From Pseudomonadota bacterium (GTDB lineage Bacteria > Pseudomonadota > Gammaproteobacteria > Burkholderiales > Burkholderiaceae_C), in the NCBI GenBank assembly GCA_022566735.1, contig JADFIG010000002.1, forward strand, positions 186,001-250,000: 64,000 nucleotides of DNA, given 5' to 3'. Positions 24,636-26,712 of this stretch are shown here, piece after piece. The notes beneath the pieces are model-generated. The model was not told the DNA's origin. It made no database searches and saw only the letters and a list, made by a program, of their open reading frames with translations. The stretch's first letter is position 1; each line of letters begins with the position of its first letter. The position numbers were made by a program, and so were the translations under genes.

Positions 24636-24657
24636 GCATACGTCATTTGACGTATGC
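24636..24657. promoter_or_regulatory. Perfect 10-bp palindrome upstream of porin
   Basis: GCATACGTCA-TT-TGACGTATGC, a perfect 10-bp inverted repeat with a 2-bp centre, 32 bp after recQ. No T-run follows, so an operator is more likely than a terminator. It lies 31 bp upstream of the sigma-54-like element of the porin gene. Confidence 0.55.
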
Positions 24658-24688
24658 GCCGTCCGAAAACGCTGGCCGAGCGCCAAGC

Positions 24689-24704
24689 TGTCACGCTTCT
24701 TGCT
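24689..24704 (+). promoter_or_regulatory. Degenerate sigma-54-like promoter of porin
   Basis: TGTCACG-CTTC-TTGCT fits the sigma-54 consensus TGGCACG-N4-TTGCW except for the second G of the almost invariant GG. The start site would be near 24715, giving a leader of about 49 nt. The GG change makes this uncertain. Confidence 0.35.
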
Positions 24705-24763: not shown

Positions 24764-25840
24764 ATGTCTGCAAACAAGAAGCTGGTGGCGCTGGCCGCCT
24801 TGACCGTGGTCTCTGGTCTGGCCCATGCCGAATCGCAACTCAAGGTCTACGGCTACCTGGAAGCCGCCCTGGGCTCCTTCAAGCCGGTCGGCGAACAGTC
24901 GATCACCAAGGTCCAAAGCGGCGACATGATGACCAGCTTCATCGGCTTCGCCGGCACCGAAGACCTGGGCGGCGGCCTCAAGGCCGAGTTCGCGCTCGAA
25001 TCCTTCATCGGCAACGACACCGGTGCCAACATCACCAACCAGGCCGGCCAGTTCTGGAGCCGCACCTCGTGGGTGGGTCTCAGCGGTGGCTTCGGTCGCC
25101 TGGCCCTGGGCCAGTACGACACGCCGCTGTTCACCGCCGGCTACACCTACAACCCCTTCGGCAGCTCGATGACGTACTCGCCGACCATGCGCCACTTCTA
25201 CAACCTGGGCTCGACCGCATCCAGCAAGCTGACCAACCTGTCGCAGGCCGACACCGGCTGGGTCAACTCCGTCACCTACGAAACCCCGGTGGTGGCCGGC
25301 TTCTCGGGCATCGTGCAGTTTTCGCCCAAGGAAAGCGCCAACGCCCAGAACAGCAACAGCTACACCGTCGGTGGCTCCTACAACGGCGGCCCTCTGAGCC
25401 TGATGGCTGTCTACGTGGACGCCGGCACCTCGCCCAAGATCGGCTCGGCCGCGGTCTCGCCGTACCCCACCGAATTCCGTGCGGCCAACTTCAACGCCAG
25501 CTATGACTTCGGCGTGCTCAAGGCCTTCGGCCAGTACACCCGCTTCAAGTACTACGACAACGCCCCGCTGAGCGTGGGCAACCTGGCCGGCGTGACCAAG
25601 GCCAACGTCTGGCAGGTCGGCGTGAGCGTGCCCGTCACCGCGTCGGGCACGGTGCTGGCCTCTTACGGTGCGGCCAAGTACAAGGCCGTGGGCGACGACA
25701 CCAGCGACAAGATCCTGTCGCTGGGCTACGACCACGCCCTGTCCAAACGCACCAGCCTGTACGCCGCCTTCACCTCGGAAAAGCTGAGCGACTTCAAGGG
25801 CGGCCGCGCTCTGGGTCTGGGCGTCAAGCACAACTTCTGA
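24764..25840 (+). CDS. Gram-negative outer-membrane porin
   Basis: 358 aa. Signal peptide about 1-22 (LVALAALTVVSGLAHA), then ESQLKVYGYLEAALG, the entry strand of Burkholderia-type general porins. GFAGTEDLGGGLKAEFALES is a typical early segment, and the C-terminal phenylalanine (GLGVKHNF) is the outer-membrane assembly signal. Forms a trimeric 16-strand barrel for small hydrophilic solutes. RBS TAGGAGAA. Monocistronic, with a palindrome and possible sigma-54 element upstream and a strong terminator downstream. Confidence 0.95.
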   Translation: MSANKKLVALAALTVVSGLAHAESQLKVYGYLEAALGSFKPVGEQSITKVQSGDMMTSFIGFAGTEDLGGGLKAEFALESFIGNDTGANITNQAGQFWSRTSWVGLSGGFGRLALGQYDTPLFTAGYTYNPFGSSMTYSPTMRHFYNLGSTASSKLTNLSQADTGWVNSVTYETPVVAGFSGIVQFSPKESANAQNSNSYTVGGSYNGGPLSLMAVYVDAGTSPKIGSAAVSPYPTEFRAANFNASYDFGVLKAFGQYTRFKYYDNAPLSVGNLAGVTKANVWQVGVSVPVTASGTVLASYGAAKYKAVGDDTSDKILSLGYDHALSKRTSLYAAFTSEKLSDFKGGRALGLGVKHNF

Positions 25841-25862
25841 GCACCACCGCGGTGGTCCCCCA

Positions 25863-25885
25863 AGCGCCCTGCGGGGCGCTTTTTT
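25863..25885 (+). terminator. Rho-independent terminator of porin
   Basis: AGCGCCC-TGCG-GGGCGCT followed by TTTTT, 23 bp after the porin stop. A further palindrome ACCACCGCGGTGGT (25843-25856) lies just before it. Confidence 0.9.
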
Positions 25886-25930
25886 CATGCCTGCATGAGG
25901 TGGCTCAGGTCAGGGGGCGGCGCACGACAC

Positions 25931-25946
25931 TGGCACGCTTCATGCT
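25931..25946 (+). promoter_or_regulatory. Sigma-54-type promoter with no downstream ORF
   Basis: TGGCACG-CTTC-ATGCT has the invariant GG-N10-GC of sigma-54 promoters and the full TGGCACG half. Predicted start near 25957. No protein gene follows on this strand; only the candidate RNA up to the terminator at 26062-26095. Confidence 0.5.
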
Positions 25947-25956
25947 CATCACCCTG

Positions 25957-26095
25957 CGGGTCTGTGCAGATGTTGAAGCGTCACCGACGAGGTGGGGCGA
26001 CACGGTCGGCACGAGGGGGACCTGTGACTGCGAAGTCACCTTTGTTTGACCAGAGCGTTCAAGGCGCCCCCTTCGCGGGGGGCGCCTCTTTTTTT
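25957..26095 (+). ncRNA. Candidate sigma-54-dependent small RNA
   Basis: About 139 nt from the predicted sigma-54 start to a strong rho-independent terminator, in an intergenic gap closed upstream by the porin terminator. It contains a 6-bp hairpin with a GCGA loop (GTGACT/AGTCAC, 26024-26039), then a U-rich single strand (TTTGTTTGA), then the terminator stem, an Hfq-sRNA-like order. No plausible ORF. Start and function are inferred. Confidence 0.4.
26062..26095 (+). terminator. Rho-independent terminator, plus strand
   Basis: AGGCGCCCCC / GGGGGGCGCCT stem, short loop, followed by CTTTTTTT on the plus strand. The minus strand (metW direction) has no T-run after it, so it most likely serves a plus-strand transcript. 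Confidence 0.85.
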
Positions 26096-26115
26096 GGCAT
26101 GGGCCCTGGCAGGGC

Positions 26116-26712
26116 TCACTCGCGCTCGAACTTGAACACCGCCGTGCTGGCCAGCAGGTTGGGCCACAGGCGCACCTCCTGGCCCTCGTGCCAGCCGAAG
26201 GACTCGAGCACGCGCAGGCCGTTCTTGCGCGCCAGGATCTCGAAGTCGGCGAAGGTGGCCACACGGATGTTGGGCGTGTCGTACCACTGGTAGGGCAGGC
26301 TGCGGGACACCGGCATGCGCCCGCGCAGCACACTGAGTCGGTGCGGCCAGTGCGCGAAGTTGGGGAAGCTCACCAGACCGATGCGCCCGATGCGGGCTGT
26401 CTCGCGCAGCATGTCCTCGGTGTTGCGCAGGTGCTGGAGCGTGTCGAGCTGCAGCACCACGTCGAAGCTGTTGTCGTCGAACAGGCTCAGGCCCTCTTCG
26501 AGGTTGCGCTGGATGACGTTGACGCCGCGGGCCACGCAGGCCTCGACCTTGGCGTCGTCCAGCTCGATGCCGTAGCCGCTGCAGCCGCGGGTGTCGCGCA
26601 GCAGGGCCAGCAGGGCGCCGTCGCCGCAACCGAGGTCGAGCACGCGCGAGCCCGGCGGGATCAGGCTGGCGATGACGCGGTGGAAGGCATTGGGGGCGTG
26701 CGGGGTGCTCAT
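26116..26712 (-). CDS. metW: Methionine biosynthesis protein MetW
   Basis: 198 aa class I SAM-methyltransferase fold: [15 protein letters not shown] (SAM motif I), [11 protein letters not shown], then [13 protein letters not shown]. Metal-free family partner of MetX; in proteobacteria MetW with MetX activates homoserine O-acylation for methionine synthesis. The start overlaps the metX stop (ATGA), so the pair is translationally coupled. Confidence 0.94.

Follow-up and report, generated by a model that had tools for sequence, protein, structure and literature searches.

The 275-bp gap between a porin gene and metW in an Aquabacterium genome probably contains the gene for a trans-acting small RNA (sRNA) of about 139 nt, which would be transcribed with RpoN (sigma-54) and would combine a variable 5′ targeting module with a presumed Hfq-binding 3′ domain. 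In a sub-clade of three species, the RNA is predicted to pair with the coding starts of porin mRNAs, most likely lowering porin synthesis. The genome stretch analysed here, a 64-kb window (G000:C21:186001-250000), belongs to one of these species. The promoter, the structure, the conservation and the complementarity were shown at the level of sequence, and on this basis the sRNA probably shuts down porins in response to a signal.

Promoter and predicted transcript in the porin-metW gap

The locus is present in relatives including A. parvum B6 and A. commune DSM 11901, and the features assigned to it are listed in Table 1. The first-pass annotation had proposed that the gap is isolated by the terminator of the upstream porin. 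This terminator is real, and it isolates the sRNA gene from porin read-through.

Table 1. Features of the porin-metW region, with positions numbered from the first nucleotide of the window
Feature	Position	Strand	Basis or remark
Upstream neighbour, porin, Porin_4 (PF13609)	24764..25840	+	same gene in relatives
Porin terminator	25862..25885	+	predicted at 25862-25881; kept in relatives
Sigma-54 -24/-12 promoter, TGGCACG-CTTC-ATGCT (TGGCACGCTTCATGCT)	25931..25946	+	motif match; boxes invariant in 8/8 species
Predicted sRNA, about 139 nt	25957..26095	+	start inferred from the -12 position; covariance model strong only in 8 species of the genus
Anti-porin module, AGCGTCACCGACGAGGTGGGGC	25977..25998	+	22/22 complement of +70..+91 (codons 24-31, SSVTLYG motif) of the distant porin C18
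Hairpin 2, GTGACTGCGAAGTCAC	26024..26039	+	compensatory changes in 4/5 consensus pairs
Invariant core, TTGTTTGACCAGAGCGTT, 18 nt, U-rich	26042..26059	+	identical in 8/8 species
Rho-independent terminator with T7	26062..26095	+	stem 26062-26087, 11 bp, loop of 4; T7 26089-26095; compensatory changes in two pairs
Downstream neighbour, metW, convergent, then metX	26116..26712	-	

The sigma-54 promoter with the GG-N10-GC arrangement was found as the earlier annotation had described it. The site TGGCACGCTTCATGCT is a near-consensus element of the TGGCAC-N5-TTGC type, differing from TGGCACGNNNNTTGCW by a single mismatch that leaves GG-N10-GC intact; nowhere else in the window does a site with at most one mismatch keep both GG and GC. 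Across about 2 Mb of this genome, 23 sites of equal quality were counted, as against 44 in a Markov-1 simulation. Because such sites recur about once per 86 kb, the promoter match alone is only suggestive. This frequency would also fit a chance sigma-54 look-alike that happens to precede an orphan terminator. However, TGGCACG and ATGC are invariant in all eight species that carry the sRNA, whereas the spacer between them is CTTC, CCAA or AGAA and the flanks on both sides have diverged. Conservation of the boxes amid such variation places the observation beyond chance, and we regard a fortuitous match as hardly credible. The genome encodes a 518-aa RpoN with the ARRTVAKYR box, as well as several enhancer-binding proteins of the GAFTGA type. 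In the 350 bp upstream, neither a shared palindrome nor an NtrC-like site was recognised for such a protein. The sRNA gene is apparently transcribed from an RpoN-dependent promoter.

The neighbouring porin gene has features of its own. A sigma-54-like box, TGTCACGCTTCTTGCT, in which GG is changed to GT (window 24689-24704), and a near-perfect palindrome, GCATACGTCATTTGACGTATGC (window 24636-24662), lie 5′ of it. The two closest relatives retain both, although the centre of the palindrome has changed, and the two elements possibly constitute this porin's own regulated promoter. In A. commune, the metW-adjacent porin (L064, G011:C10:116479-117471) contains an in-frame TAG.

The run of T residues ends about 139 nt past the predicted start, which agrees with the strong terminator with seven Ts that had been placed about 140 nt downstream of the promoter. 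This terminator is stronger than that of the porin. The RNA (25957-26096) folded with -65.1 kcal/mol (z = -3.06 relative to shuffles). Indels of 1-4 nt between relatives rule out a conserved reading frame, in line with the claim that the segment holds no ORF. The variable targeting module would stand at the 5′ end of the RNA, followed by a hairpin, the invariant U-rich core and a rho-independent terminator with U7; these three elements would make up the presumed Hfq-binding 3′ domain. A U-rich stretch, UUUGUUUGA, lies 3′ of hairpin 2 and ahead of the terminator. The Hfq-sRNA-like layout suggested in the first-pass annotation fits this arrangement, and hfq is encoded in the genome (PF17209, 98.9 bits); the sRNA probably binds Hfq, and the core may be an Hfq contact, a second seed or both.

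Conservation and distribution

When the gap was compared by BLAST with 61 genomes, the same place was found in six congeners, and extraction of the region downstream of metW brought the total to eight carrier species, that of the window included; named, cultured species (A. commune, A. parvum) are among the carriers. Most other congeners have metW immediately after the porin terminator or carry other sequence in the gap; in some, metW lies at a contig end, where presence of the sRNA cannot be judged. In the metW tree, all carriers fell within a single clade (99/95), whose sole non-carrier, G009, has its metW at a contig end. A congener lacking the sRNA (G020) has a different, apparently terminator-ended segment in the gap, CCAAGCGCTCCCTCGGGAGCGCTTTTTTTT (L039, about 1330-1480), which is possibly an unrelated transcript.

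Within the genus, the covariance model gave 121-156 bits in carriers and 24.2 bits for the best other match. A scan of 401 genomes of the family yielded one further match, in another genus (G136), which we rejected as a copy of the sRNA since it rests on the terminator and has neither core nor promoter. Matches to the DNA pattern outside Aquabacterium were not many above chance expectation, no viral copies were found, and no convincing copy was seen elsewhere than at the porin-metW locus. As far as the collections examined show, the sRNA is restricted to one Aquabacterium clade.

Across hairpin 2 and the terminator, six pairs changed on both sides. Cells changed on both sides numbered 20, compared with 8.0 in shuffles, a control that does not amount to a probability for eight related sequences. 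Slid controls agreed with this result, the paired cells making up 99.2% in the actual alignment and 41-59% in the controls. The original proposal had been made dependent on conservation of the promoter and the hairpins in relatives; these, together with the terminator, were conserved in the eight species. A short transcript that has no function in trans and, for instance, insulates the convergent porin and metW genes from each other would suit the position between them and the presence of only a porin terminator in the gap of most congeners. Such a transcript needs no invariant core, no compensatory hairpin changes and no conserved promoter, and we consider this role very improbable.

Predicted pairing with porins and exchange of the 5′ module

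Evidence for a trans-acting sRNA directed at porins comes from the 5′ module, whose 22-base identity to the antisense strand of the C18 porin locus (L009) was already apparent in BLAST. We scanned gene starts in about 2 Mb, which contain about half of those in the genome. Among 1,616 unique gene starts, the longest complementarity was 22 nt, in the C18 porin, and it did not exceed 13 nt in the other 1,615. Control RNAs (sense, reversed, shuffled or from a foreign clade) reached 12-14 nt. When about 1,620 gene starts were cofolded with the sRNA, the C18 porin ranked first and a second porin, C40 (MKKTVLALAAIAASS), to which the module has 11 complementary nt, ranked fifth; ranks 6 and 7 were duplicate copies of the C40 porin gene. 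The neighbouring porin came only at rank 165, had no long pairing and was rejected as a target. The porin control that had been suggested from the position of the gene thus holds, by predicted pairing, for the distant porins C18 and C40 and not for the adjacent one. The pairing site sits inside a stem-loop of the sRNA, which must open for pairing. The genome is GC-rich and contains the word GTCACCGACGAGG frequently; words of the pairing segment are in general common in GC-rich coding sequence.

In the C18 porin orthologue of nzgw550, 18 nt are complementary to the sRNA, and in that of A. commune the stretch is broken by one mismatch. In these two species, a sense-strand match in some unrelated gene has an equal or higher score. 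For the MKKTVL porin, binding to the sRNA is predicted in all three species of the sub-clade (-27.6, -29.1 and -34.3, compared with about -17.5 for a foreign sRNA). Between nzgw550 and the species of the window, the sRNA differs as GGTGAAGC to GGTGGGGC and the porin as GCAGCCACC to AGCCCCACC, and the pairing extends from 18 to 22 nt; with few positions involved, this is suggestive of co-change between the sRNA and its target porin. In A. commune, the orthologue of the C18 porin (L094, G011:C2:493500-494600) is split between two frames and may be a pseudogene or reflect a sequencing error. At L009 2129-3022, the C18 porin gene itself is divergent from the gene of an ABC-transporter periplasmic binding protein, judged by eye to be of the LivK/amide type, a hint of amino-acid or amide uptake.

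A real sigma-54-dependent sRNA could instead act through its core, TTGTTTGACCAGAGCGTT, on other conserved targets, so that the anti-porin match would be incidental or secondary. The core is the only invariant segment of the transcript besides the terminator, the anti-porin module is missing in five of the eight species, and the core partly complements the NALVKQ codons of clpX in several genomes. However, the 22-nt porin match exceeds every control by at least 8 nt, and a second porin is also among the top five in cofolding. As a conserved target of the core, clpX was rejected: the site lies in the middle of the gene and is imperfect here, and its counts barely exceeded those of the reversed-pattern control. 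In two other genera, the matches to the core fall on clpX codons; those elsewhere in the family are chance or clpX-codon matches, and plain duplex energies of the core gave no meaningful target ranking. We therefore judge it unlikely that the core carries the main activity. A possible anti-SD pairing in clade B (GGUUCUC with porin GAGAACC), seen by eye, was also discarded, as it is missing in one species of that clade.

Returning to the anti-porin sRNA, the module occurs only in the three-species sub-clade of the window. The other five species retain the promoter, core and terminator, but their 5′ module is unrelated; in the four of them in which porins were compared, complementarity to porins did not exceed chance, and the fifth shares their module. 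Identity between the species of the window and G361 is 96% in the core and terminator and 42% in the 5′ module; between G361 and G001, the corresponding values are 87% and 97%. The simplest reading is that the three-species sub-clade descends from an ancestor in which the targeting module was replaced; the tree resolves the order too poorly to prove the direction. More tentatively, and with considerable doubt on our part, the sRNA may be modular in a broader sense, its RpoN promoter and 3′ core and terminator kept while the targeting module is swapped wholesale between sister lineages, in one of which it is antisense to the signature codons of porins (SSVTLYG), reaches several porin paralogues and changes with the target porin (from 18 to 22 complementary nt). 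One RNA could reach several paralogues because the module is antisense to codons that are a signature of the porin family.

Relation to known sRNAs and significance

In the mechanism we propose, RpoN-RNA polymerase would transcribe the predicted RNA, and its 5′ module would pair with the SSVTLYG codons at the start of the porin coding sequence in the species of the window and its two closest carrier relatives. Porin synthesis would then be lowered via mRNA decay, by analogy with MicC and ompD. In Salmonella, MicC pairs at ompD codons 23-26, which does not block initiation but brings about cleavage by RNase E (PMC3469820). Both RNAs pair within a porin coding sequence, at codons 23-26 in ompD and 24-31 in Aquabacterium, but their sequences are unrelated and MicC uses a 12-nt seed at its 5′ end.

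No Rfam family reached its threshold for the sRNA. The scores of NcS25 (RF02869; 20.5 bits, gathering score 46), ncS54 (RF02871; 24.7 bits, gathering score 43) and suhB/MmgR (RF00519; 20.7 bits, gathering score 41) came largely from the terminator in the first case and mainly from the GC-rich terminator in the other two. NcS25 of Burkholderia cenocepacia represses a distant member of a large porin family (PMC10117139). Like the Aquabacterium sRNA, it comes from Burkholderiales, lies beside a porin and has the layout of hairpin, single strand and terminator. It differs in being 84 nt long and pairing with the SD and start codon (PMC10117139), as well as in having no sigma-54 motif upstream and another gene context. 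NrsZ and GlnZ are RpoN-dependent sRNAs (PMC9731577), and the Aquabacterium sRNA is predicted to share this mode of transcription. In contrast to it, NrsZ lies downstream of ntrBC and affects rhamnolipid and motility, whereas GlnZ is a glnA 3′UTR product that targets sucA (PMC9731577); no NtrC-like site was seen at the Aquabacterium sRNA.

The best reading of these comparisons is a new, lineage-specific sRNA with predicted RpoN dependence and porin targets. To our knowledge, few RpoN-dependent sRNAs are known, and our search of the literature found none for Aquabacterium or its family. The sRNA would link a signal sensed through RpoN to the permeability of the outer membrane. Within one clade of eight species, its targeting part has apparently been replaced with the promoter and 3′ domain kept, a small case in which the evolution of target choice by an sRNA becomes directly testable.
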